The notes: generated by a model from the sequence alone, not told the origin. A stretch of DNA of 64,000 nt from Clostridia bacterium (GCA_035628995.1 DASPIR010000027.1:1-64000), one strand, 5' to 3'. Shown: positions 1,941 to 18,168, counted from the stretch's first letter. Numbers and translations: made by a program.

Positions 1941-3359
1941 ATGTATGATGTAAAATCCAAAAAAGCGGAAGATTTTATAAATGACGAAGAAATACTGGAT
2001 ACAATTGAGTATGCAGAAAAAAATAAAAACAATCGCGAACTGATAGAAAGCATTATAGAAAAGGCAAAAAAATTAAAGGGAGTTTCTCATCGCGAGGCCG
2101 CCGTTCTTTTAGAATGCGAGATTCAAGATGTAAATGAAAAGCTGTATAAGCTTGCCAGAGAAATAAAGCAGAAATTTTATGGGAATAGAATTGTTATGTT
2201 TGCACCGCTTTATCTTTCCAATTATTGCGTAAACGGCTGTGTTTACTGTCCATATCATTATCAAAACAAGCATATTTATCGCAAAAAGCTCACACAGGAG
2301 GAAATACGAAACGAAGCTATTGCGCTGCAGGACATGGGCCACAAGCGTTTAGCTCTTGAAGCAGGGGAAGACCCCGTAAACAATCCGATTGAATATATAC
2401 TGGAAAGCATTAAGACAATATATTCAATCAAACACAAAAACGGCGAAATCAGACGCGTAAATGTGAACATTGCGGCAACAACCGTTGAAAATTACCACAA
2501 ACTGAAGGAAGCAGGAATAGGCACATATATTTTGTTTCAGGAAACATACAATAAAAAGAATTATGAGGAGCTGCACCCGAAAGGACCGAAGCATGATTAC
2601 TCTTATCATACAGAGGCAATGGACCGTGCCATGGAGGGCGGCATTGATGATGTAGGCATCGGCGTGCTGTTTGGGCTGAATATGTACAGATATGACTTTA
2701 TAGGCATGCTTATGCATGCTGAGCATTTGGAGGCCGCAATGGGAGTCGGCCCACACACGATCAGTGTTCCGCGCATTCGTCCTGCCGACGATATTGATCC
2801 GGCAAATTTCTCTAACGCCATTTCTGATTCCATGTTTGAGAAGATAGTTGCCGTGCTCCGTATTGCTGTGCCATATACAGGCATGATCGTATCAACACGT
2901 GAATCCCAAAAGACCCGTGAGCGTGTTTTACAGCTTGGGATTTCTCAAATAAGCGGCGGCTCAAAAACCAGTGTCGGTGGATATTCCGAGCCGGAGCCGG
3001 AGGAGGAAAACTCCGCACAGTTTGAAGTTGACGACACACGTACCCTTGATCAAGTAGTAAACTGGCTCCTGGAGCTTGGATATATACCCAGCTTTTGCAC
3101 TGCCTGCTACCGTGAGGGCAGAACCGGAGACCGCTTTATGTCACTTGTTAAATCAGGGCAGATTGCGAACTGCTGCCAGCCCAATGCTTTAATTACTCTT
3201 AAGGAGTACCTGGAGGATTATGCTTCACCCGATACAAAGGGAAAGGGCGAAAAGCTGATCCAGGAGGAGCTTAACCATATTCCGAATGAAAAGGTAAAAG
3301 CTGCCGCAGTTAAGTATCTCTATGAGGTCGGCAGCGGAAAACGGGATTTTAGATTCTAA
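1941..3359 (+). CDS. hydG: [FeFe]-hydrogenase maturase HydG (tyrosine lyase)
   Basis: Radical SAM tyrosine lyase that cleaves tyrosine to p-cresol and dehydroglycine, supplying the CO and cyanide ligands of the H-cluster. The 472-residue length is normal for HydG. The N-terminal motif CVNGCVYCPYH carries the C-x3-C-x2-C SAM cluster. The C-terminal part CTACYREGRTGDRFM ... GQIANCCQPNA provides the C-x2-C-xn-C site of the second cluster, where the dangler iron and cysteine sit. The HydG/ThiH-type segment GGSKTSVGGYSEPEP is present. It is the third gene of the operon; GGGGG precedes ATG 1941 at 7 nt. Confidence 0.96.
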   Translation: MYDVKSKKAEDFINDEEILDTIEYAEKNKNNRELIESIIEKAKKLKGVSHREAAVLLECEIQDVNEKLYKLAREIKQKFYGNRIVMFAPLYLSNYCVNGCVYCPYHYQNKHIYRKKLTQEEIRNEAIALQDMGHKRLALEAGEDPVNNPIEYILESIKTIYSIKHKNGEIRRVNVNIAATTVENYHKLKEAGIGTYILFQETYNKKNYEELHPKGPKHDYSYHTEAMDRAMEGGIDDVGIGVLFGLNMYRYDFIGMLMHAEHLEAAMGVGPHTISVPRIRPADDIDPANFSNAISDSMFEKIVAVLRIAVPYTGMIVSTRESQKTRERVLQLGISQISGGSKTSVGGYSEPEPEEENSAQFEVDDTRTLDQVVNWLLELGYIPSFCTACYREGRTGDRFMSLVKSGQIANCCQPNALITLKEYLEDYASPDTKGKGEKLIQEELNHIPNEKVKAAAVKYLYEVGSGKRDFRF

Positions 3360-3384
3360 TCCACATGAAGAAGGAGAATTCATT

Positions 3385-4578
3385 ATGAGTTTACAGGATA
3401 CTCCCCGCTCGAACCGACTCCATATAGGCATTTTCGGGAAGCGAAACAGCGGGAAATCATCATTGATAAACGCACTGACAAATCAAAATATCGCTATCGT
3501 ATCGGATATTGCCGGTACGACTACCGACCCTGTTTATAAATCAATGGAAATACATGGTGTAGGACCATGTGTGTTTGTTGATACGGCAGGCTTTGATGAC
3601 ATTGGTGAGATAGGCAGGCTGCGCGTTTCTCAGACCAAAAAGGCGATGGAGAAGACAGATATTGCCATAATGATGTTTAGTGAGGATATTACAAAAGATG
3701 AAATCGAATGGGTGGAAGAATTAAAAAGAAAACATATTCCAGTCATTTCCGTGATCAATAAAATCGATATTATTCACAATGCCGAGGCTTTACGTAAGTC
3801 GGTAGAAGAAAAATGCAAAATACCGGCTATATTGGTCAGTGCCCTCACAAAGGAAGGCGTCGATAAAATCCGAAAAGAAATTATCCGTGCGCTTCCTGCG
3901 GATTATGAAAACGAAAGCATCGTGTCAAATCTGGCAAAGTCTGATGACGTTGTTCTTCTTGTCATGCCTCAGGATATCCAAGCACCTAAGGGAAGACTTA
4001 TCCTGCCGCAAGTGCAGATTATAAGAGAGCTGCTTGATAAAAAATGTATCGTAATAAGCGTGACAACAGATAAGCTTGAGGCCGCGTTAGACAGCCTGAA
4101 GCATCCGCCAAAGTTGATTATTACCGATTCACAGGTATTCAAAGCAGTTTATGAAAAAAAGCCTGCAGAAAGCATGCTCACATCATTTTCCGTATTGATG
4201 GCGGGTTATAAAGGGGACTTGGATTATTTTGTCCAAAGCGCTTATGCTATCGAGCAGCTGACAGAAAGGTCTAAGGTATTGATTGCCGAAGCCTGCACCC
4301 ATGCGCCATTGACAGAAGATATCGGGAGAGAAAAAATTCCCCGCTTTCTGCGTGAAAGAATCGGCGAGGGCCTGAGGATAGATATAGTCAGCGGTACGGA
4401 TTTTCCGGAGGATGTTTCCGGCTACGATCTTATCATACATTGCGGGGGGTGCATGTTTAACAGGAAATATGTACTGTCGCGTATTGAAAAAGCCCGAGCA
4501 GCTCATGTTCCAATGTCAAATTACGGTGTTGTAATTGCCTATTTATCCGGGATTTTGGGGAACATAGATTTGCCTTGA
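3385..4578 (+). CDS. hydF: [FeFe]-hydrogenase maturation GTPase HydF
   Basis: Scaffold GTPase that carries the 2Fe precursor made by HydE and HydG and passes it to apo-hydrogenase. The N-terminal GTPase domain has the P-loop GKRNSGKSS, the switch residues AGTTTDP, DTAGF and the base-recognition motif NKID. The C-terminal cluster-binding domain shows the HydF signature C-x-H ... H-C-x2-C as CTH (near residue 303) and HCGGC (near 352). The 398-residue protein starts at ATG 3385 after GAAGAAGGAGAA. A longer frame from 3322 overlaps hydG and lacks a good ribosome site. The structural hydrogenase itself is not in this window. Confidence 0.96.
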   Translation: MSLQDTPRSNRLHIGIFGKRNSGKSSLINALTNQNIAIVSDIAGTTTDPVYKSMEIHGVGPCVFVDTAGFDDIGEIGRLRVSQTKKAMEKTDIAIMMFSEDITKDEIEWVEELKRKHIPVISVINKIDIIHNAEALRKSVEEKCKIPAILVSALTKEGVDKIRKEIIRALPADYENESIVSNLAKSDDVVLLVMPQDIQAPKGRLILPQVQIIRELLDKKCIVISVTTDKLEAALDSLKHPPKLIITDSQVFKAVYEKKPAESMLTSFSVLMAGYKGDLDYFVQSAYAIEQLTERSKVLIAEACTHAPLTEDIGREKIPRFLRERIGEGLRIDIVSGTDFPEDVSGYDLIIHCGGCMFNRKYVLSRIEKARAAHVPMSNYGVVIAYLSGILGNIDLP

Positions 4579-4600
4579 AATTATCGGGGAGAAAGAATAA

Positions 4601-4786
4601 CTCTCAGGAGAGATTGTAGTACCGGAGTTTCAAGGCAAAGGAATAGGGAAACAACTGGTTACATTACTTATGGAGAAGTTTAAACATACTACTATTTATC
4701 TAACATATACAGAAGAAAAAGACACTTTTTATGAAAAATTCGGATTTCAAAAAATAGATAATGCGATGCGTATGTTAAAACACTAG
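4601..4786 (+). pseudogene. GNAT acetyltransferase remnant (C-terminal fragment)
   Basis: An open stretch after a stop at 4598-4600 reads VVPEFQGKGIGKQLV, then YTEEKDTFYEKFGFQKID and ends at TAG 4784. The Q-x-x-G-x-G motif is the acetyl-CoA pyrophosphate loop of GNAT acetyltransferases and FYEKFGF is the usual C-terminal strand. No start codon or N-terminal half is found: the DNA before it is the end of hydF. I read it as a decayed gene end brought in by recombination. The substrate is unknown. Confidence 0.7.
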
Positions 4787-4934
4787 CTAAGCCCCACAAT
4801 CGCCCAACAACATAATTATTGTAAATACCCTGTTGCTAGGGCATGTGTATTGATTAAACCAAAAATTGGATAAAATAACTATATTCGTTTGCTTCTAACA
4901 TATGCTATAATAATCCAAAAGGGGAGTGAAGGCC

Positions 4935-5282
4935 TTGGCAGATAAAATGTTTGAGTTAATGGAAAAGATGTATATAGAATTCAAGGATTTTAAGGGAGAT
5001 ATAACAGCAAAGGTCGTAAGCCTGGATGCAAAGATTGGAGGCTTAGATGCGAAGGTCGGAAGCCTGGATACAAAGGTCGGAAGCCTGGATACAAATGTTG
5101 GAAATATACGCAAAGATGTGTTGCGTATTGAAAATAAGCTTGATACCAACTCTAAAGCATTGTTTGACGGATATAGTCAGACTTATGAAAAACTTACTGT
5201 GCTTGAAAAAAAGGTTGATGATATTAGCTCTAAGGTTGAAAAGCAAGATGTAGAAATCAGAGTAATAAAGGGTGCAAAATAA
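4935..5282 (+). CDS. Small coiled-coil protein with heptad repeats, function unknown
   Basis: A 115-residue protein made almost wholly of predicted coiled coil. Residues about 25-53 are four near-identical heptad units of the form K[IV]G[GS]LD[AT], encoded by 21-bp tandem repeats. A second helical part, KLTVLEKKVDDISSKVEK, follows. There is no signal peptide and no recognised domain. GGGGAGTG precedes TTG 4935 at about 6 nt. GTG 4926 lies inside the ribosome site, and ATG 4947 is an alternative start. A terminator follows, so it is a single-gene unit. Similar Clostridia and phage proteins exist without known function. Confidence 0.7.
   Translation: MADKMFELMEKMYIEFKDFKGDITAKVVSLDAKIGGLDAKVGSLDTKVGSLDTNVGNIRKDVLRIENKLDTNSKALFDGYSQTYEKLTVLEKKVDDISSKVEKQDVEIRVIKGAK
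5010..5093 (+). repeat. Four tandem 21-bp repeats inside the coiled-coil gene
   Basis: Units at 5010-5030, 5031-5051, 5052-5072 and 5073-5093. The third and fourth are identical; the others differ at a few positions. Each unit encodes one heptad, so copy number can change without breaking the frame. Confidence 0.85.
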
Positions 5283-5289
5283 TTGATAC

Positions 5290-5323
5290 AAAAACCTTCC
5301 CGTCGTTGACAGGAAGGTTTTTC
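5290..5323 (+). terminator. Rho-independent terminator after the coiled-coil gene
   Basis: An 11-bp stem AAAAACCTTCC/GGAAGGTTTTT with an 11-nt loop; the 3' arm ends in five Ts. Confidence 0.85.
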
Positions 5324-5402
5324 AATATGGGTAAAAATGTCTAGTTTTCACGCATATTATTTTTACATAGGTAATACCAACACATATTAAGATTCTACCC
5401 CA

Positions 5403-5627
5403 GCCCCAGATATACTCCAGAGAATTAGTGGAATTGCTTTTTTCGAGTTTTATACCAAAATCGCATATATAGAAGCGGGTCTTAAAGTGACAAGGAAAAC
5501 TGCTTCTGGGTACTTAGTTGAGTTTGAAAAGAGCGAATTTTTGGAGTCGTAGAAAATTGGAAGAGAGAAGATTTATACTAATAAACGTCTTTATGAAGTT
5601 GTAAAGGAAGCGGGTATGGAGAAGTAG
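5403..5627 (+). pseudogene. Fic-family protein remnant (C-terminal winged-helix part)
   Basis: Translation gives YTKIAYIEAGLKVTRKTAS, then GYLVEFEKSEFLES, an in-frame TAG, and KIGREKIYTNKRLYEVVKEA before the final stop at 5625. This matches the C-terminal helix-turn-helix tail of bacterial Fic (AMP-transferase) proteins, where the usual text is SRQTASKYL ... LESEKIGKEKIYINKRLYE. The Fic catalytic motif is absent upstream and there is no start codon. The gene is therefore a degraded fragment with one nonsense codon. Confidence 0.65.
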
Positions 5628-5639
5628 GAGGGCTGAGTT

Positions 5640-6220
5640 GGGTTAGGTGGAATATGCTGATAAGTTTGGTGACTTATATATTGTATCTCTGTTGCTTTAA
5701 AAAGTTAACATACATAAGATTTATTACAGTAAACCGTATCATAATTAAGTGCGGAAGTGCACAGAGGTAAGTTATACCAAAGCTTATAGATAGTTTACGT
5801 ATTCATTTCTATTTGAAGTTATAAAGAAAGTAAGTTGACAAGTTGACAGACTGCACATAATCTCCATAATCTCATGAGTCGTAATCCAAATAAACATGGA
5901 ATATGAAATGAATATATTTATTTTGTAGTTATTGAAGGATATACTAATTCCATGTCAAATTATAACATTATTGGATGAGAAAATGTCTTATTATGTGAAT
6001 TCCATCATGAGGATTTAAACAGGCTCTTGTACAGCAGTTAACCATAACGGATATAGAGATAGTCTGGAGTTATATCATGTAATATATTTAGATGATTTTC
6101 GAGCCTCGATGGTACTAAAAGGGTGATTTAATAAGATTGAATTGAATGATGTCATGGTTAATTGATATATATAAATGATAGAAACATTACATATTGTAAT
6201 AGAGCACTAAATAAACAAGA
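5640..6220. other. AT-rich stretch without recognisable gene
   Basis: About 580 bases of AT-rich DNA with stops in all frames lie between the Fic remnant and the ParB/SNF2 cassette. I see no RNA gene, clear terminator or repeat. It probably contains decayed sequence and the promoter of the following cassette, but no promoter stands out. Confidence 0.5.
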
Positions 6221-6232
6221 GGAGATTTGATA

Positions 6233-7240
6233 ATGAAATCTGAATATCGTGAGATTCGTGTAAGTGAGATCATGTTAGATTATGAAAATCCTAGGATTGC
6301 GAAATATTTAGAAATATATGGTGAGGGTCAAATATCGAGTGAAACTATTTCAATGGCGTTAGGAGCGGGAACTGATGAAAAATCCGGACCATCATATAGC
6401 AGCTTAAAGGAATCAATAAAGGCAAATCAAGGGATTATACACCCAATCATTGTCAATGAGTTAGATAACGGCAAACTGGTAGTTATTGAAGGAAATACAA
6501 GGGTTCAAATATATAAAGAGTTTTATCAGGCTGGTGTTCCAGGTGAATGGGAGACTATTAGTTCAATAGTTTATAAAGATTTAGCAGATGAAGAAATCCA
6601 TGCTATTAGGCTTCAGTCGCATCTGGTTGGACCGAGAGATTGGGATCCATATTCAAAAGCTAAGTACTTAAATTACCTGAGTAATAAAGAAAAGCTTCCA
6701 ATTCTACAAATTATATCGTTTTGTGGAGGAAAATCAGCAGAAGTTAAAAAAATGATAGATGCGTATTACGATATAGAAAATTATTATCGTTCTAACTTAG
6801 ATGACGATAGTGAATTTGACCAGAGAGAATTTTCTAAATTTATGGAGCTTCAAAATAGAGGTATAAAAGACGCAATAGTTATACATAAATATGACCGAAA
6901 CGATTTTGCAAAATGGGTAATAGATGGTAATATTGATACGGCGCAAAATGTCAGAAAGATTCCTGTTATATTAAAAAGCAAAGAAGCAACGAAGGTATTT
7001 CTTGAGGAAAATATTTCTGAAGCAATGAAAGTCTTGGCAATTGAAGAATTTGACGCAGGACCGATAAAAGATGTTTCGTATGGAATTTTAGCATCTGAAT
7101 TAACTAAAAAGCTAAGAAATATTAAATACGCAGAGATAAGAAGCCTTAGGTTTGATCCGGATTATGATGACAAAAAAGCAATATTATTTGATTTATTAGA
7201 TGAATTGATGGCGGTAGCTGAGGAGATAAAAGAGGAATAG
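6233..7240 (+). CDS. ParB/Srx-fold protein (cassette gene 1)
   Basis: The 335-residue protein begins with a ParB N-terminal-like domain. EIRVSEIMLDYENPRIA opens the fold, IKANQGIIHPIIVNEL is the box I-like part, and VIEGNTRVQIYKEF (near residue 85) is the E-G-N-x-R nucleotide-site motif. DWDPYSKAKYLNYLS follows, and the C-terminal half is helical without an assignable domain. Such domains bind or hydrolyse CTP/ATP, or act as nucleases in a few plasmid and phage proteins. A partner ParA is absent, so chromosome segregation is unlikely. It is paralogous to the fourth gene (9144-10133). AGAGGAGAT precedes ATG 6233. The stop is 4 nt from the next start. Confidence 0.75.
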   Translation: MKSEYREIRVSEIMLDYENPRIAKYLEIYGEGQISSETISMALGAGTDEKSGPSYSSLKESIKANQGIIHPIIVNELDNGKLVVIEGNTRVQIYKEFYQAGVPGEWETISSIVYKDLADEEIHAIRLQSHLVGPRDWDPYSKAKYLNYLSNKEKLPILQIISFCGGKSAEVKKMIDAYYDIENYYRSNLDDDSEFDQREFSKFMELQNRGIKDAIVIHKYDRNDFAKWVIDGNIDTAQNVRKIPVILKSKEATKVFLEENISEAMKVLAIEEFDAGPIKDVSYGILASELTKKLRNIKYAEIRSLRFDPDYDDKKAILFDLLDELMAVAEEIKEE

Positions 7241-7244
7241 AAAA

Positions 7245-7658
7245 ATGGGAGAGTCTATACAGCACATTAAAATGATACATAATATTATGCACATAGTTTC
7301 GGAGATCGTACCAGAAAAGTTTAGAGGTTTTATTTTACTGGACATTTCTGAAAGCCAAGAAAAACCTCCGAAAACGGCTGAAGGTTACCGGCCAGATCTA
7401 TATTATTGCCATAATGACATAATGGTAATAGGTGAAGCAAAAACTTCTTTTGATTTTGAAAGGAAGCATAGCAAACAACAGTATTTATCTTATATGAAAG
7501 CATGTTCCATGTTTGAAGGGACGGCGTATTTAATTATTGCTGTGCCATGGACTGAATGTAGATCGGCTAAAAATATGTTGAGGCGGATGAAATCAAATAA
7601 TGAATTTGATTTGAATATTAAAGTGATTGATGATGTGGGGCAGGTGGGACTGGTATGA
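7245..7658 (+). CDS. Putative PD-(D/E)XK-type nuclease-like protein (cassette gene 2)
   Basis: The 137-residue protein has a restriction-endonuclease-like core. GYRPDLYYCHNDIMVIGEAK (around residues 46-65) gives P-D, a 12-residue spacer and E-x-K in strand context, and HSKQQYLSYM with its glutamine follows, as in several PD-(D/E)XK families. YLIIAVPW is the next strand. No DNA-binding domain is visible, so it may work with its neighbours. Its stop overlaps the SNF2 start (ATGA at 7655-7658), so translation is likely coupled. Nuclease activity is inferred from motif spacing alone. Confidence 0.55.
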   Translation: MGESIQHIKMIHNIMHIVSEIVPEKFRGFILLDISESQEKPPKTAEGYRPDLYYCHNDIMVIGEAKTSFDFERKHSKQQYLSYMKACSMFEGTAYLIIAVPWTECRSAKNMLRRMKSNNEFDLNIKVIDDVGQVGLV

Positions 7659-9142
7659 GAAAAGTTAAGTTGAAAAACGAGCCTATTCTTATTGCAAAGC
7701 TTAGTGCATTTCCATATCAAAAAGATGCTTTTGATGCAGTTAAAGATTTACCATATTCAGCAATTTTTCATGAGCAAGGTTTAGGTAAAACCAAAATAGC
7801 TATTGATTTACTATTATATTGGTTAGAATATAAAGATGTGGATACAGTGCTAATAGTGACAAAAAAGCAACTGATACAGAATTGGAAAACCGAATTTATG
7901 TCTCACACATACATTAAGCCTGCCGTTTTAACTAATAATAGGGCAGAAAACTTTTATGTGTTTAATGGACCAGCTAGAGTTGTTATTACGAATTTCGAGA
8001 CAATACCTGCCGAAAAAGTAAGATTTCATCTGTATCTCAAATCGAGAAATGTTGCCATAATAATTGACGAGTCAGCTAAACTAAAAAATCCAAAATCTAA
8101 ATTATCAAAGGACTTTTTTGAACTCTCATCTAAATTTGTGATTAAAACAATAATGACGGGAACTCCTGTTGCTAATAGACCATATGATATATGGTCCCAG
8201 ATCTTTTTTTTGGATAGCGGTGAAAGTTTGGGAACTGATTTTAAGTCGTTCAAAAACATAACTGATTTATCAAATAAGCTTTATGAAGATGATGATAAAA
8301 AAGAAATATTTGAGGATGCCGTTTCGGATATTTATAGGAAGATTAATAAGTTTTCAGTGAGAGAAACCAAAGACAGCGGAATAATCAATTTGCCAGATAA
8401 ACAGTATATGAATGTCTGGGCAAAGTTTGAGCCACAGCAAAAAGAAATATACGATAAAATAAAAGATGAAATGGCTATTTTGGTACAAAAAGGGGACAAG
8501 TCTATATTTGACGATTCAACAGCAACACTTAAGCGCCTATTAAGATTAGTACAAGTAACATCCAATCCAAAATTAATTGATGATATGTACTTTGGAAATT
8601 CAGGTAAAGAACAAGAGTTGGAGATACTGGTAGATGGAATTATTGCTAAAGGTGAAAAATGCATTGTTTGGTCGAGCTTCATTGGAAATATTAATTATTT
8701 TACTCAGAAATATTCAAGATACAATGCGGTTAAGGTTCATGGAGGCATGACTATTATTGACAGAAATAAGTCTATTGATAGATTTAGAAAAGATGAGTAT
8801 AAAATTTTGTTTGCAACACCTCAATCTGCTAAGGAAGGATTAACATTAACAATGGCAAATCATGTAATCTTTTATGATAGAGGATTCAGTTTGGATGATT
8901 ACCTACAAGCTCAAGATAGAATACATAGAATATCACAAGTAAAAACATGTTATGTCTACAACATAATGATTAACGATAGTATTGATGTATGGGTAGATAC
9001 ACTGCTTAAGGCAAAGCAAAATTCGGCGCATCTTGCGCAAGGTGATATCAATAAGATGGAATATCAGGATGTAGCAGACTACAGTTTTGGCAGCCTTGTA
9101 AAGCAAATTCTAAATCTTAATGACGGTGATGAGGAGGTATAA
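7655..9142 (+). CDS. SNF2-family helicase-like ATPase (cassette gene 3)
   Basis: The 495-residue superfamily-2 DNA translocase has all main SNF2 motifs: motif I HEQGLGKTKIAIDLL (near residue 45), Ia VTKKQLIQNWKTEF, motif II DESAKLKNPKS (DEAH replaced by DESA), motif III MTGTPVANRPYDIWSQ, motif V SAKEGLTLTMANHVIFYD and motif VI QAQDRIHRISQ. It is compact, with no added chromo, HNH or zinc domains. ATP-driven movement on double-stranded DNA is the family activity. Overlap with the nuclease-like gene and immediate contact with the second ParB-like gene suggest one complex. Confidence 0.9.
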   Translation: MRKVKLKNEPILIAKLSAFPYQKDAFDAVKDLPYSAIFHEQGLGKTKIAIDLLLYWLEYKDVDTVLIVTKKQLIQNWKTEFMSHTYIKPAVLTNNRAENFYVFNGPARVVITNFETIPAEKVRFHLYLKSRNVAIIIDESAKLKNPKSKLSKDFFELSSKFVIKTIMTGTPVANRPYDIWSQIFFLDSGESLGTDFKSFKNITDLSNKLYEDDDKKEIFEDAVSDIYRKINKFSVRETKDSGIINLPDKQYMNVWAKFEPQQKEIYDKIKDEMAILVQKGDKSIFDDSTATLKRLLRLVQVTSNPKLIDDMYFGNSGKEQELEILVDGIIAKGEKCIVWSSFIGNINYFTQKYSRYNAVKVHGGMTIIDRNKSIDRFRKDEYKILFATPQSAKEGLTLTMANHVIFYDRGFSLDDYLQAQDRIHRISQVKTCYVYNIMINDSIDVWVDTLLKAKQNSAHLAQGDINKMEYQDVADYSFGSLVKQILNLNDGDEEV

Positions 9143-9143
9143 T

Positions 9144-10133
9144 TTGAGTAAAAAAATGACAATTGGCAAAAAAGAATTTGAAGTCGAGGAAAAGGAATTA
9201 CTACAGGTTGACCTAAAGTTCTATCCAGAGAATCCTCGTATTTATTCTGTATTAAATGTAGCAAACGGAATTCCTGAACAAGATGAAATTGAAGAGCAGT
9301 TAATGAACATGGAGCATGTCAAGCAATTGAGACTATCTATTGAGGCAAATGGCGGTCTTATAGATCCATTAATAGTGCGTGCAAAGGATAACGTAGTATT
9401 GGAGGGGAATAGTAGATTAGCTGCATACAGATTATTGGCAAAGAAGGACCCTGCTAAGTGGGGGCGTGTTAAATGCACAATACTACCTTCTGACATACCA
9501 GAGTCTAGCATCTTTACTCTATTGGGACAATATCATATTATAGGAAGAAAAGATTGGAGTCCATTTGAACAAGCTGGATATTTATATAGAAGGGTAAACG
9601 TCTATGGATCTGGATTGTCAGTAGATATTATGGCAAAAGAGTTGGGATTAGAAAAAGCAACAGCACAAAATTACTATAGGGTATATTCTTTTATGGTAGA
9701 AAAAGATGACTTGAAGGCAGGCCATTGGAGCTATTATGATGAGTACTTAAAAAATCGTGGTATTAAAAAATACAGAGAAACATATGCCAATCTGGATGAA
9801 ACAATTGTGACACAGATAAAAAATGAAGAAATTTCACAAGCAATTGATATACGAAACAAACTTGGTGTCATTGCAAAAGTATCCGGGAAAACTGCTAATA
9901 AAATTATGTCTGGAATTTGCGAAGGGAAAATCGATATTTACGAAGGGTTTGACAGGATCCAAGATACAGGGAAAACAAGTAATGCATACCAAATATTATA
10001 TAAGTTTAGAAGCAAAATTAGCGAAGATGATTTTGAGGTACAAGTGAAAAGGGAAGATCCTAAACAGATAACGTTTGAACTCAAAAAAATCAAGATGGCA
10101 GTTGATAAGATATTAAAAGAGATAAAAGAGTAG
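9144..10133 (+). CDS. Second ParB/Srx-fold protein (cassette gene 4)
   Basis: The 329-residue protein resembles the first cassette gene. The shared pattern is a xENPRIx strand (YPENPRIYSVL), SIEANGGLIDPLIVR, the nucleotide-site motif VLEGNSRLAAYRLL, and a D-W-x-P segment (GRKDWSPFEQAGYLYRRV) followed by a helical C-terminal half. Here there is also a helix-turn-helix-like part, IMAKELGLEKATAQNYYRVY. GAGGAGGT ends 5 nt before TTG 9144, which I prefer to ATG 9120 inside the SNF2 gene; ATG 9156 is an alternative. Two diverged copies around a motor protein suggest a heteromeric DNA-clamp-like role, which is inference. Confidence 0.72.
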   Translation: MSKKMTIGKKEFEVEEKELLQVDLKFYPENPRIYSVLNVANGIPEQDEIEEQLMNMEHVKQLRLSIEANGGLIDPLIVRAKDNVVLEGNSRLAAYRLLAKKDPAKWGRVKCTILPSDIPESSIFTLLGQYHIIGRKDWSPFEQAGYLYRRVNVYGSGLSVDIMAKELGLEKATAQNYYRVYSFMVEKDDLKAGHWSYYDEYLKNRGIKKYRETYANLDETIVTQIKNEEISQAIDIRNKLGVIAKVSGKTANKIMSGICEGKIDIYEGFDRIQDTGKTSNAYQILYKFRSKISEDDFEVQVKREDPKQITFELKKIKMAVDKILKEIKE

Positions 10134-10179
10134 TCGAAGTTGAATAGCCAATAGAACTTAGGGATAGTTGGAGAAAAAT

Positions 10180-11994
10180 ATGAAAATAGGTATTGTAGAT
10201 GCTGATTTAATGGATAATGGAACACGTCACCCAAATTTAGCACTCATGAAAATAGCAGGATACCATAGGGAAATAGGTGACGAAATAAGTTTAATATACG
10301 ATTCGTATGATAATACAAAAAAGTTCGATCATGTGTATATTTCTAAGGTGTTCAATTTTACATATATACCAGAGTCGGTGATGGCTGAACCTAATGTAAG
10401 TTTTGGTGGTACTGGCTTTTTTGCAGATGGAGGAACTGATCTTCCGTATGAGATAGAGCATCATATGCCATACTATGATTTGTATAAAGAATATGTAGAT
10501 TTACAAATTTCAAGAGGAAAAGATGCTCAAAGGTATTCTGACTACTTGAATTTTTCAATCGGTTTTACAACAAGAGGCTGTTTTCGCAAATGTGAATTTT
10601 GTGTAAATAAGAAGTATGATAAAGTACAAAAACATGCACATGTGTATGAATTTTTAGATGAGAGCCGATCCAAGATCTATTTATGGGATGATAATATTCT
10701 TGGATGTACTGATTGGGAGGATGTTATTAATGAATTAGTTGAAACGGATAAGCCGTTTCAGTTTAGGCAGGGACTAGATCTAAGATTAATGACAGATAGA
10801 AAAGCATATCGATTTAATCAAGTTAAATATTATGGAGATTTTATTTTCGCTTTTGATCATTTGAGTGATAAAGATAATATCATTAGTAAAGTACAATTGT
10901 GGAAAAAATATACCAACAAGCATCCCAAAATGTATGTTCTAAGTGCATTTAACTCACAAGATGAACATGATATTGAAAATGTGTTTGAGAGAATTCATAT
11001 CCTTATGAGATATGGATGCTTGCCATATATTATGCGCTATGAAGATTATGAAAACAGCAAATATAAAGGTCTTTATATACAGATTGCGAGATGGTGCAAT
11101 CAACCTCAATTCTATAAAAAAATGTCATTTAGAGAATTTTGTGAAAGGAATCAATATTATCATCCAAATCCGAATACTCTATGCTCAGCTTATCGTGCGA
11201 TGATTGAATTTGAAACAGAACATCCGGCAATTGCCAAAAAATATTTTGATCTTAAGCTGATGAACGAAAATATTTATAGAATAAATTATGGCTATGGTAG
11301 AAGATTTTACAATAAACAGGAATGTAGTCAGTGTAAGTTGAAAAAGCAGCAGTGGGATGCAGTTGTGAATGGTGAGCTAAGCGAAGAGCAGGTAATGAAT
11401 TTATACTATCTAAAAGAAATTGATTATAATTGCTTGAGATATAAAAACGCTGAGTGTGAAATAACTTCAAATAAAGTTGGAGAATATTTGGCTAAGTTCA
11501 TTATCAATTTAAGTGAAGATAATATTTGCAATATAATTTGTAATGCCACTGATATTGAGGAGTTAAGCAAAGATGTTTGTATAGTACCTCGATATTCAAA
11601 AAAGTATTATGTTGACTTGATGAATAAAATCTTTTCTGGCACTTTGTATGATTCTATTAGTATTAAGAATATTTATAGAATTGTTGGTATTGATAAACAG
11701 AAAGATCGATCCATATTAATGGAACATTTAAAGATATTAGCATTACTTGACTTTATTGTTTTGAGCAGAGACAACAAAAATGGAACAGTATCATTATCAA
11801 TGCTCGGACAGGAATTTGTGAAAATGGGAGAAAAAGATAAAGATTATATTTGGAGAAGAAATTTGTACAGATTACCTTCTGTACAACATTATATTCGTAT
11901 GGCAGATGATTATGTTACCTTTGAGAGAAAATTAATAGCCTTACATATAGCTAATATCAAAGATATTATGTCGTATTTGCATAAAAATTTTTAA
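10180..11994 (+). CDS. Radical SAM enzyme with C-terminal winged-helix-like domain (cassette gene 5)
   Basis: The 604-residue protein starts with a B12-binding-like region (MKIGIVDADLMDNGTRHPNL). The radical SAM core has C-x3-C-x2-C in TRGCFRKCEFC (near residue 132), then YLWDDNILG and FRQGLDLRLM, as in MiaB/BchE-like enzymes. A second cysteine group, ECSQC near residue 384 followed by two more cysteines in YNCLRYKNAEC (near 430), could bind a metal or auxiliary cluster. The last 130 residues look like a winged helix (MEHLKILALLDFIVLSRDNK). ATG 10180 is chosen after AGTTGGAGAA. The gene is 46 nt after the second ParB-like gene. The substrate is unknown; a DNA base modification is one possibility. 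Confidence 0.8.
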   Translation: MKIGIVDADLMDNGTRHPNLALMKIAGYHREIGDEISLIYDSYDNTKKFDHVYISKVFNFTYIPESVMAEPNVSFGGTGFFADGGTDLPYEIEHHMPYYDLYKEYVDLQISRGKDAQRYSDYLNFSIGFTTRGCFRKCEFCVNKKYDKVQKHAHVYEFLDESRSKIYLWDDNILGCTDWEDVINELVETDKPFQFRQGLDLRLMTDRKAYRFNQVKYYGDFIFAFDHLSDKDNIISKVQLWKKYTNKHPKMYVLSAFNSQDEHDIENVFERIHILMRYGCLPYIMRYEDYENSKYKGLYIQIARWCNQPQFYKKMSFREFCERNQYYHPNPNTLCSAYRAMIEFETEHPAIAKKYFDLKLMNENIYRINYGYGRRFYNKQECSQCKLKKQQWDAVVNGELSEEQVMNLYYLKEIDYNCLRYKNAECEITSNKVGEYLAKFIINLSEDNICNIICNATDIEELSKDVCIVPRYSKKYYVDLMNKIFSGTLYDSISIKNIYRIVGIDKQKDRSILMEHLKILALLDFIVLSRDNKNGTVSLSMLGQEFVKMGEKDKDYIWRRNLYRLPSVQHYIRMADDYVTFERKLIALHIANIKDIMSYLHKNF

Positions 11995-14070: not shown

Positions 14071-14410
14071 GGCAGAAATCAAATTTGTAAAATTGATCTG
14101 GTGATGCCCACCGAATATCATTGTGTTCTTTCTTTTGAAGAGTACCATCAACTATCTCGCAAATGTAGAAGTTTATGTGAACGGTTCGCTGAGGATAATC
14201 AAAAGTGACCTCCGAGAATAAGGAGAGCACCTTAATAATTATGCCCAATTCTTCCTGGCATTCCCTAATAAGGCACTGCTCATCTGTTTCGCCAGGTTCA
14301 ATTTTTCCTCCGGGAAACTCCCAGAGAAGCTCACAATTTTTACCTCTTGGCCTTTGGCATATAAGGACCTTGTCGCCATTTCGAATTATTGCAGCAGTCA
14401 CATCAATCAT
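14018..14410 (-). CDS. NUDIX hydrolase (MutT-like, 8-oxo-dGTP diphosphatase type)
   Basis: The 130-residue protein has the complete NUDIX box G-x5-E-x7-R-E-x2-E-E-x-G as GKIEPGETDEQCLIRECQEELG (about residues 35-56). The start IDVTAAIIRNGDKVLICQRP and the later HNDIRWASPDQFYKFDFCPAD match MutT/CTP-pyrophosphohydrolase proteins. These hydrolyse NTPs or damaged dNTPs. Its ATG overlaps the helicase stop (14407-14410), so it is the third gene of an XRE-helicase-NUDIX operon. In that setting it could act on nucleotides as part of a defence response rather than in general mutation avoidance. Confidence 0.9.
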   Translation of the reverse strand: MIDVTAAIIRNGDKVLICQRPRGKNCELLWEFPGGKIEPGETDEQCLIRECQEELGIIIKVLSLFSEVTFDYPQRTVHINFYICEIVDGTLQKKEHNDIRWASPDQFYKFDFCPADNEVISSIKNEILNL

Positions 14411-16368
14411 ATCTCTTTCACCCCCAGTTCTTTAAGATAACGATAAATCCCGTCATAAAACTCTGGCTGGCGAGTCTCATCGTTCTTATCGCCTTCTGGA
14501 ACGAAAATAACAAAACCTTGACGAGCTCGGGTGAGTAGTACACGATAAGCATTCTTGAGATAATTGCGATTTTTTACATTGTTGATATTATGCCAGGCAG
14601 AACCGGTGAAACTATAATATTCAAATTCGCAACCGTTATAGCGAAAATTTGCATCCCAGCAGATGATAGTCCAATCCAATTCCAATCCCTGAATGTCAAA
14701 CTCGGTAGCGGTATCTTCCATGAAATAGGAAGAACGCACATCGTCAAAACCGTTCAAAAACCAGTTTTTCGCATCAACCTTACTCTGGACCCAAACGCCA
14801 TATTTTTTTAGCCGTCGTGCCCCAGAACTGGCCGTAATACCATAGCGTTGCGTTCCCTTTGCCATGTTTTTCACCCACTTTTTAGCGGTTTCCAAGTCTC
14901 GGGTGATAACTATTGGATAGTCCTCTTTTAGCGTTAGATATAAAGCAGTTGTTTTTTCTTTATCGAGATCGAGTAAGCTCTTTACAAACCCAGCTACGTT
15001 TTCGCTGCGGAATGACCGTAAAGATACGGCCAGATGCAAGTCTTTAGCCACATGATAATTCATACCGGTGAGCAATTCTGGGACAGATATACCCTGAGAA
15101 TACTCACTATCGGAGATTTGGTCGGAAACATAAACATCCCATTTTGGATAATGAGCCTTTAGTGTATCGAACCACTCCAGAAGCCCAGCTTCACCTGTGT
15201 TGATTTCTTGACCGCCACCGATCAGACAGATAATTACTGCCCAATCTTCGTTACGGTCCATAATGCTGATCAGAAACTGAGGTTCGGACATATTGAAGTT
15301 TGGCTTACCCTTTTTCCTCTTCATGAAGTCAGACAGCATTTCTTTCGTCCATGCACGTTGCGCTTCATCAAATATTGCAACTTTATTAATTAGCGGGGTA
15401 TTTACAGATATTGCTTCGTCCCGGAAGTGATGTATGATCTGGATAAATTCCTTTGATTTGCGCAGTGCTTCTGTTTTGCTAATTCCAGTTCGTTGGTGTT
15501 CATCACGAGCTAGTGCTTCCTGCAATACATCAACCAATGGCCCATTCCCGGAAAGAAAAACTGAATATTCGTTTTTAGTAGCATCAGTATTTTGGCGCTC
15601 GATAGCAATGTTCAGCCCCGCTAAAGTTTTTCCTGCGCCGGGTACACCAGTGATAAAGCATATAGACTTTTTACCATGGCTTTTGCTGTAGTCAATTATT
15701 TGGTTGATCGCTTTAGTGGTGCGGGACAGATTAATTGCACTGGCATCATTGCGGGAGATATCTGCAACTGTATGATTGTGATACAGCGCCTGAGCCGCTT
15801 CGATGATTGTTGGTGTCGGCATATAAATAGAGTTTATCCAGACAATCGGATCGAGCGGGATATCTGACATCTGATGAAGTACAGCGTCAATCGCAGCCCG
15901 TATGTTGTTTTGATTACATAGCAGTACATTCGTGATACCTTCTTTCAGCATAGAAACAGTAGGCCTTTCATCTGGCGCTTCAGTTGCTACTAAGATAGGC
16001 ACCAATGTTCGCTGATGACTTTCCTTATGGAAGTCCTTTAAATCAAGGGCATAGTCTGTGACTTGGTAGATACCATCACGAAGAAAAGCATGTTCACCAA
16101 CCTTGAATTCTAACAAGAAAACAAGTCCCTGAATGATCAAAACGTTATCAATGCGGCGGCCAATTCGGGGTATAGTGTACTCAAAGATAAGATAGCCATC
16201 CTCCAGACCCATCAGAGACCGCTTAAGAATGTCAATCTCAAACTGCCATGTGTTCCGTTGCAGATCGTTCAAGTCAAACTGGTTGTTGGCCGCCAGTATT
16301 CCCAAGATTGAGTTGGGATCTTCATGTAAAAAATTTCCCACAGAATGGTCATAATACGCACGTGCCAT
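14407..16368 (-). CDS. DUF2075-type nuclease-helicase fusion
   Basis: The 653-residue protein has an N-terminal PD-(D/E)XK-like domain (RRIDNVLIIQGLVFLLEFKV, residues about 72-91, with D and E-x-K). A superfamily-1-like helicase of the DUF2075/Schlafen-group-3 type follows: Walker A FITGVPGAGKTLAGLNIA near residue 240, Walker B VAIFDEAQRAW near 330, EFDIQGLELDW and the motif-VI-like YRVLLTRARQGFVIFVP near 625. GGGGGTGTAGTA precedes ATG 16368. It lies 11 nt after an XRE gene and overlaps the NUDIX gene. Related proteins are frequent in defence islands. The exact target is unknown. Confidence 0.85.
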   Translation of the reverse strand: MARAYYDHSVGNFLHEDPNSILGILAANNQFDLNDLQRNTWQFEIDILKRSLMGLEDGYLIFEYTIPRIGRRIDNVLIIQGLVFLLEFKVGEHAFLRDGIYQVTDYALDLKDFHKESHQRTLVPILVATEAPDERPTVSMLKEGITNVLLCNQNNIRAAIDAVLHQMSDIPLDPIVWINSIYMPTPTIIEAAQALYHNHTVADISRNDASAINLSRTTKAINQIIDYSKSHGKKSICFITGVPGAGKTLAGLNIAIERQNTDATKNEYSVFLSGNGPLVDVLQEALARDEHQRTGISKTEALRKSKEFIQIIHHFRDEAISVNTPLINKVAIFDEAQRAWTKEMLSDFMKRKKGKPNFNMSEPQFLISIMDRNEDWAVIICLIGGGQEINTGEAGLLEWFDTLKAHYPKWDVYVSDQISDSEYSQGISVPELLTGMNYHVAKDLHLAVSLRSFRSENVAGFVKSLLDLDKEKTTALYLTLKEDYPIVITRDLETAKKWVKNMAKGTQRYGITASSGARRLKKYGVWVQSKVDAKNWFLNGFDDVRSSYFMEDTATEFDIQGLELDWTIICWDANFRYNGCEFEYYSFTGSAWHNINNVKNRNYLKNAYRVLLTRARQGFVIFVPEGDKNDETRQPEFYDGIYRYLKELGVKEI

Positions 16369-17314: not shown

Positions 17315-17376
17315 ATTTTGCTTAATTGCAAGTATTAAAGAAAATATTTTGTTTAATGCTTGCAATTAAGCAAAAT
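17315..17376. repeat. Perfect 18-bp inverted repeat
   Basis: ATTTTGCTTAATTGCAAG (17315-17332) and CTTGCAATTAAGCAAAAT (17359-17376) are exact reverse complements with a 26-nt gap. They lie directly before the homologous part of a truncated ATP-binding regulator. They could be an operator for that gene or the trace of a recombination event. Confidence 0.7.
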
Positions 17377-17394
17377 TTATATTATAACTTAACA

Positions 17395-18168
17395 AAAAAA
17401 CATCAGCTTTGTATTACAGCGGTAGTTGTACCCGGTACTCAAATGGGAGAAACCGGCATTGATGGCGAACGTTTTATTGCCAATAAGCGTATTGAGGGGA
17501 TAATAAGCCAAATGCTTGACGAAGCTATGTACTTTGTGAAACGAAATATGCGTGAGAAAACAATAATTGATGAAAATGGCAAACGAAATGATAAGCCTGA
17601 ATATCCTGTAAAGGCTGTTAGAGAAGCGGTGCTTAACGCTTTAATGCATAGGGATTACAGTATTCACACAGAGGGTACCCCTGTAAGAATAATCATATAT
17701 AGCGACCGTATGGAAATCATAAATGAAGGCGGATTATATGGGAAGCTCACTATTGACAGCCTTGGGAAAATTCATACGGATACACGAAATCAAACTTTAA
17801 CCAACATACTTGAAATTCTGAAAATTGCTGAGAACAGATACTCTGGCATCCCTACCATTCGTATGGAGATGCAGGAGCATAATCTTCCTGAGCCTATTTT
17901 TGAAAATAAAAGAGGCAGCTTTATTGTTACTTTAAAGAATAGAATGGAAACACAAATTGAAAGCGGTATGGTAAGAACAGGAGATATACAATCAGATTTA
18001 TTGAAGTTTTGCATAACTCCCAAAACTCGTGAAGAAATAGCTAAATTTGTAGGTCGGACACAATACTATACTATGAAAACCCTTGTTATGCCGTTAGTAG
18101 AACAAAGTTTGCTTAAATTAACAATACCGAATAAGCCGAAAAGCAGAAATCAGAAGTATTTTTCTTAG
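17395..18168 (+). pseudogene. Truncated AlbA/AAA_4-type ATP-binding regulator (N-terminal half missing)
   Basis: The translated product matches the C-terminal half of RecG-like/AlbA transcriptional regulators. ITAVVVPGTQMGETGIDGER precedes a GHKL-like ATP-binding part with VREAVLNALMHRDYS and YSDRMEIINEGGLYG, and a winged-helix tail follows (PKTREEIAKFVGRTQYYTM). The N-terminal AlbA_2 (Schlafen-like) domain is absent. The frame stays open back to 17326, but those 23 codons come from the inverted repeat, so no proper start or ribosome site exists. It is probably a decayed gene; a shortened functional product cannot be excluded. Confidence 0.7.

Follow-up and report, generated by a model that had tools for sequence, protein, structure and literature searches.

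Five intact, tightly spaced open reading frames lie on one strand at positions 6233–11994 of the 64-kb window (the whole stretch of Clostridia DNA that was analysed), and together they have the look of an immune system, so far undescribed, that would mark and cut DNA and in which the usual DNA methyltransferase gives way to a radical SAM enzyme. Sequence comparison and structural models taken together indicate that the cassette probably defends against incoming DNA in a restriction-modification-like way, with the mark placed by the radical SAM enzyme. This enzyme, E, with its fused domain X, would mark the DNA of the host itself chemically, the likeliest modification of a base being a carbon-methyl or methylthio-type one. 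DNA lacking the mark would be attacked by the SNF2 motor C together with the PD-(D/E)XK nuclease B, and A and D would serve as ParB-like NTP switches on DNA, deciding where or when the nuclease–motor unit acts. A target-recognition domain was not identified with confidence.

Gene layout and protein features

Alternative starts are present in three of the frames (6227 or 6233 for A, 9120 or 9144 for D and 10168 or 10180 for E), and ribosome-binding sites favour ATG 6233, TTG 9144 and ATG 10180, respectively; the TTG of D lies 1 nt past the stop of C, with GAGGAGG just 5' of it. From these starts the spacings A–B, B–C, C–D and D–E are 4, −4, 1 and 46 nt, in agreement with the initial annotation, which had described five same-strand genes with gaps or overlaps of −4 to 46 nt. 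The greater A and T content claimed there is likewise evident, the GC fraction being 0.30–0.36 in the cassette versus 0.42–0.47 in the hyd genes and 0.47–0.52 in the liv genes. Remnant genes on both sides, also proposed, are plausible: to the left there are a short coiled-coil ORF (4926–5282) and ∼940 bp in which no gene is evident, and to the right a truncated HATPase_c_4 ORF (17326–18168). An empty insertion site was not demonstrated from six genomes of the genus (that of the window included), among which only G001 has another hydF relative (45% identity) and the liv binding protein has no match in the other genomes.

Table 1. Features of the five-gene cassette, in window coordinates.
Feature	Coordinates	Strand	Description
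A	6233..7240	+	ParB-like protein, N-terminal NTP-binding fold and HTH-like region, 335 aa from ATG 6233
B	7245..7658	+	Small PD-(D/E)XK nuclease, 137 aa
C	7655..9142	+	Compact SNF2 ATPase, 495 aa
D	9144..10133	+	ParB-like protein, paralogue of A, ∼329 aa (start TTG 9144)
E, radical SAM part	10180..11283	+	N-terminal Rossmann-like domain and radical SAM barrel, CxxxCxxC
E, C-terminal domain X	11284..11994	+	Four cysteines

Among the five proteins, Pfam gives a confident assignment only for C (SNF2 PF00176, 6e-30; Helicase_C, 3e-19), in accord with its earlier description as a compact SNF2 motor. The Walker A, DE box and motif VI of C are kept in 62–63 of 64 sequences and the Walker A threonine in 58 of 64. 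Neither B nor E has a significant Pfam match, and PDB sequence searches produced nothing significant for B, D or E. The active-site residues P50-D51, E64-A65 and Q79 of B are present in 52 of 52 sequences and K66 in 50 of 52; the AlphaFold model (pLDDT 95) has a PD-(D/E)XK core, with SdaI, Nt.BspD6I and other restriction-type nucleases as the nearest folds (Z 7–8). Since the structural Z scores reach only this level, the fold assignment rests on the motif and the model jointly, and the two together uphold the PD-(D/E)XK-like identity first suggested for this small protein and give it the intact active site looked for in the nuclease of a restriction-modification system.

A and D are paralogous ParB-like proteins, as had been supposed (27% identity over 332 aa), with the ParB-type motifs E-G-N-x-R and H-x-x-G-x-x-x-W in common. 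The match of A to Pfam ParB_N is weak (1e-4, 22.6 bits versus a curated cut-off of 26.3) and that of D is marginal (12.8 bits). The motifs N21-P-R, E88-G-N-T-R92 and R128-L-Q-x-H-L-V-G-x-R-x-W of A are kept in 58–60 of 61 cassettes, and the closest PDB matches of this protein are Noc, SbnI and ParB, at about 0.01; residues N38-P39-R40, E95-G96-N97, R99, H139 and W146 of D are kept in 60 of 60. Both proteins fall below the ParB threshold and no ParA family was found among the proteins scanned, so that the locus does not have the make-up of a ParABS partition system. A and D share their fold with the ParB-CTPase-fold proteins outside ParABS treated in PMC12704722, the relevant passages of which describe orphan ParB proteins with links to mobile elements and with fusions to N6/N4 methyltransferases, but do not contain the A-B-C-D cassette; the word 'radical' is absent from the whole paper.

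The identification of E as a radical SAM enzyme is borne out by a CxxxCxxC motif (C138, C142 and C145, numbering from start 10168) located on a radical SAM fold, and by a match of the first 330 residues to the phage radical SAM family phrog_9298 in PHROGs (1e-53). The motif is found in 57 of 58 cassette radical SAM proteins, the sole exception being a contig-end fragment. Up to residue 370 most blocks of the model have pLDDT values of 85–99, and the closest folds to residues 1–370 are MgmA (Z 18.3, rmsd 3.7, 287 aligned) and AprD4 (Z 17.4), followed by MiaB (Z 16.2), MtaB (Z 15.5) and then cobalamin radical SAM methylases. Model confidence is low in the region of domain X, homologues of which are encoded on their own immediately after D in L064, L065 and L120, the arrangement of Bacteroidota-type cassettes. 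The domain X profile matches those of L065 (9.5e-5) and L120 (0.0086), with the fused protein from viral contig L121 as the bridge. A BLASTP comparison of domain X with the S24-tailed protein of L120 failed, the link being recovered only through this bridging protein.

Recurrence and distribution of the cassette

A search of 84,980 species genomes with a profile of D, the most specific marker of the cassette, combined with six-frame HMM searches for the other parts, produced 56 loci. B, C and D are present in all 56 and A in 54, the remaining two loci beginning at a contig edge; A-B-C-D occur in this order in 54. A radical SAM gene is present in 51 of the 56, with 44 of type R and seven of type E (the type of the window). 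Of the remaining five, three are truncated by contig ends and two have a D12 adenine DNA methyltransferase instead. A GHKL ATPase gene is found in 34 of the 44 R-type loci and in none of the seven E-type loci, and a DndB-like gene occurs in 22 loci, all of type R and none of type E. The initial annotation had proposed that the five genes form one system; looked for elsewhere, the genes recur together in these 56 loci, which strongly supports a recurrent system inherited as a unit rather than a chance cluster.

Carriers belong to Bacillota, Bacteroidota, Elusimicrobiota, Pseudomonadota, Thermodesulfobacteriota, Acidobacteriota, Verrucomicrobiota, Planctomycetota, Chloroflexota, Nitrospirota, Poribacteria, Binatota and Saccharimonadota, giving a count of at least 13 phyla in which several carriers are metagenome-assembled genomes open to binning errors. 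One 'Desulfobacterales' assembly (L059) is probably such an error and was not counted as a further phylum because its SNF2 protein is identical to that of a Bacillota assembly (L058). The cassette is rare, with one or two per about 380–400 genomes in four samples that each include one known carrier. Among 391 sampled genomes of the class to which the window belongs, D was found in one other (59% identity), where the radical SAM gene after A-B-C-D is a different one. The nearest named relative is Clostridium paridis (L057), also a carrier. Together with DndB-like, radical SAM and GHKL genes, A-B-C-D is found on plasmids of Rhizobium, Mesorhizobium and Roseomonas (∼40–50% identity for A, C and D and 24–33% for B). 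All eight viral contigs with D contain the whole cassette including the radical SAM gene, B of contig L116 having been missed by ORF picking; these copies may represent prophages or mis-called contigs. A divergent Bradyrhizobium variant (L053, 7743–17189) has three ParB-like genes 5' of B and C as well as inverted GHKL, radical SAM and DndB-like genes.

A reading of the cassette as a module that maintains, replicates or repairs mobile elements, and not as a defence system, is very improbable: the nearest PHROGs family to C is the phage SNF2 family phrog_62 (8e-90), many copies are on plasmids or viral-collection contigs, and ParB-like proteins, SNF2 and a nuclease also make up phage replication modules, but the conserved unit lacks ParA, replicase and relaxase, copies are found on chromosomes of many phyla, and the exchange of the modification enzyme and the defence-gene neighbours fit restriction better.

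Contexts of the radical SAM gene

The two loci with a methyltransferase (L067 and L068, Saccharibacteria) have the D12 gene directly after D in convergent orientation, and they are the only ones with a true DNA methyltransferase as the linked modifying enzyme. The D12 protein matches PF02086 (9e-53) and has DPPY and FLGSG motifs. In the SNF2 tree both loci are nested among radical SAM loci; the two gene copies are 98% identical, and the exchange represents one lineage. A search for further exchanged loci, in 380 genomes from the phylum of G394 (the Saccharibacteria genome with L067) and 375 from that of G395, found the known copies and no others.

A second context is provided by viral contig L121, in which a full-length relative of E (48% identity over residues 4–605) ends 3 nt before pbeA. 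PbeA (4e-218) is followed by PbeC (1e-101), and LmuB precedes the radical SAM gene. Across 2650–11343 of this contig one run of genes encodes LmuB, the radical SAM protein with domain X, PbeA and PbeC, plus a protein of 155 aa, as a hybrid Pbe locus. The link of PbeA/PbeC to a radical SAM enzyme is that of this one contig; according to the relevant passages of PMC10853773, loci of the PbeA/PbeC type otherwise use phosphorothioation or cytosine methylases.

Enzymes of type E are also encoded on at least 321 viral contigs. A methyltransferase gene (c1) adjoins the phage gene in 16 of 51 dereplicated groups, C5-methyltransferase and AdoMet-synthetase-like neighbours occur in fewer than 16 of the 51, and some phages carry a gene of the family with no methyltransferase nearby. 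In a sampled phage cluster a ParB-N6/N4 methyltransferase, a C5-methyltransferase and an AdoMet-synthetase-like gene stand beside the radical SAM gene. A module comprising a terminase small subunit, an AdoMet-synthetase-like protein, a ParB-N6/N4 methyltransferase, the radical SAM protein and a C5-methyltransferase is seen in L165 (4020–9376) and in similar gut phage loci, and recurs in many viral contigs. Members of phrog_9298 from cassettes and phages interleave in the tree of E, indicating exchange between the two, but most of the phage members have neither domain X nor A-B-C-D, and many adjoin DNA methyltransferases and an AdoMet-synthetase-like gene.

The R-type radical SAM gene and the GHKL ATPase gene are found beside HerA as well, without A–D. 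In L212 (3625–9413), L230 (3447–9851) and L231 (3536–9866) an unknown protein of 367–409 aa, HerA (7f6d, 3e-43 for that of L230), the GHKL ATPase and the radical SAM enzyme form a four-gene set, which looks like another system sharing the radical SAM module. A search for solved relatives of the protein before HerA in L212 found none; that the gene in this position in L212 and L230 is 'NurA-like' is a guess. The methyltransferase exchange, the L121 locus, the phage neighbourhoods and the HerA loci taken together show that the radical SAM enzyme behaves as an exchangeable modification module.

The nearest folds of E are those of enzymes that act on tRNA (the methylthiotransferase MiaB), protein (the methylase MgmA) or small molecules (AprD4), so that DNA is only a putative substrate, and a protein or tRNA target is for the same reason the main rival. 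On this view the cassette would still serve defence, but the radical SAM enzyme would act as an effector or produce a signal by modifying a tRNA, a protein or a nucleotide, and the nuclease–motor unit would attack invader DNA in response to another cue. Bacterial viperins are radical SAM enzymes able to act as antiviral effectors and offer a precedent. No viperin match was found for E in PADLOC or NCBIfam, its best solved folds, perhaps among others, being MgmA, AprD4 and MiaB. A non-DNA target is nevertheless unlikely, given that a DNA methyltransferase is exchanged for the radical SAM gene at the same place, that DNA methyltransferases occur in the phage neighbourhoods and that the L121 enzyme accompanies a PbeA/PbeC pair, the loci of which rely on DNA modification.

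A type IV-like arrangement, in which A-B-C-D would attack foreign-modified DNA and the radical SAM enzyme would remove, mask or edit the modification or act as a regulator, would suit both the carriage of the same radical SAM family by phages and the ParB-fold proteins included among GmrSD-family type IV enzymes in the relevant passages of PMC12839542. Such a system needs no linked modifier, yet one is kept as a radical SAM gene in the great majority of loci and as a methyltransferase in two others, making this arrangement very unlikely.

Known systems and defence-gene neighbours

A restriction-modification-like role can be compared with several known systems. The cassette resembles Dnd and PbeABCD (CxC-DndE) in its modular coupling of a DNA-modifying enzyme, here putative, to a nuclease–motor unit, in the DndB-family gene of many relatives and in the placement of the E relative before pbeA in L121, but differs in that its motor is SNF2, its nuclease a small PD-(D/E)XK protein and its modifier a radical SAM enzyme. 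DndC (PP-loop), DndD and DndE are absent from the five proteins and the scanned neighbours (all but four small ORFs), and DndA is absent among the window proteins scanned. The expectation of the initial annotation that parts would be related to Dnd and Dpd systems holds for the 22 relatives with a DndB/DpdB-family gene (PF14072, 7.7e-8 for the one scanned) and fails for the window copy, which has none. A PADLOC scan of the window proteins identified neither PbeA (PLD-helicase) nor PbeC, which were seen only in L121. DpdA transglycosylase and queuosine genes are absent from the window families, and the likeness of C to DpdE does not go beyond both being SNF2 proteins.

Type I/III and BREX-like restriction-modification systems with SNF2 motors share with the cassette an SF2 motor, a PD-(D/E)XK nuclease, a modification enzyme and mobile islands, and in two loci the likeness extends to a DNA methyltransferase as modifier. 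The cassette differs in having no identified HsdS-type specificity subunit or PglZ, in its two ParB-type NTP switches and in a modifier that is usually not a methyltransferase. The R-type loci with a GHKL ATPase beside an SF2 helicase and a restriction-fold nuclease recall the MORC/paraMORC operons, the description of which in the relevant passages of PMC2292703 includes no radical SAM enzyme, but the GHKL gene is absent from the window copy and from all E-type loci. The match to the ZorD model of type I Zorya (NF041790) scores 64 bits, the equivalog cut-off being 1500. PADLOC 2023 produced weak models only for A and D, none for B or E and generic SNF2 similarity for C, and none of the five proteins has an equivalog match in NCBIfam. 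The statement that no named system has this gene set thus stands for PADLOC 2023, NCBIfam and the relevant passages of the open-licence full-text literature (Dnd, BREX, MORC and ParB-fold papers included), where an earlier mention is possible.

Neighbours across the 56 loci include genes for PARIS AriA, DISARM DrmA/B, AbiE, AbiL, methyltransferases, a type IV restriction endonuclease and resolvases. Because the survey has no matched background it is only suggestive, and its type II methyltransferase matches are at least partly the two Saccharibacteria genes. In the window an SLFN-g3 helicase gene (14407–16368, PADLOC candidate PDC-S41, 1e-284) lies on the opposite strand, 2.4 kb downstream of the cassette, with a NUDIX gene and several HTH genes close by, in what makes a defence island of small size in the interval from hyd to liv. 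A pair of genes for PIN_8 and a second GHKL protein (HATPase_c_3) adjoins the cassette in either orientation in L048 (14372–17893), L089, L103 and L111, and is perhaps an associated effector or a separate system. P2-like phages (L055, phage Wphi, 96–3266; L056, Pseudomonas phage D14A, 4971–7938) encode together a D-like ParB protein, a cytosine methyltransferase and a protein in which a restriction-fold-like motif, GDGGxDxxAW...QCxCS, was recognized by eye; this set is a possible ParB–nuclease–methyltransferase system.

A DNA-modification or anti-invader role, which the initial annotation had favoured in anti-phage form, is the best-supported inference from the exchanges, neighbours and domain content; the role itself is one that we infer. 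In the specific roles suggested there, the ParB pair would read the mark and SNF2 with the nuclease would act on unmarked DNA. A more specific reading, put forward tentatively, is that of an immune system that is hitherto undescribed and has been widely transferred: a radical SAM enzyme, cobalamin-type or methylthiotransferase-like, would write a self mark on DNA and ParB-fold NTP switches would gate an SNF2–nuclease unit, the same enzyme family marking phage genomes and being interchangeable with DNA methyltransferases. If this is true, a mark written by radical SAM chemistry would join the means by which bacteria distinguish self from foreign DNA, the large phage radical SAM family would be explained as genome-marking and probably anti-restriction enzymes, and paired ParB-fold switches would have a restriction-like context in at least 13 phyla.
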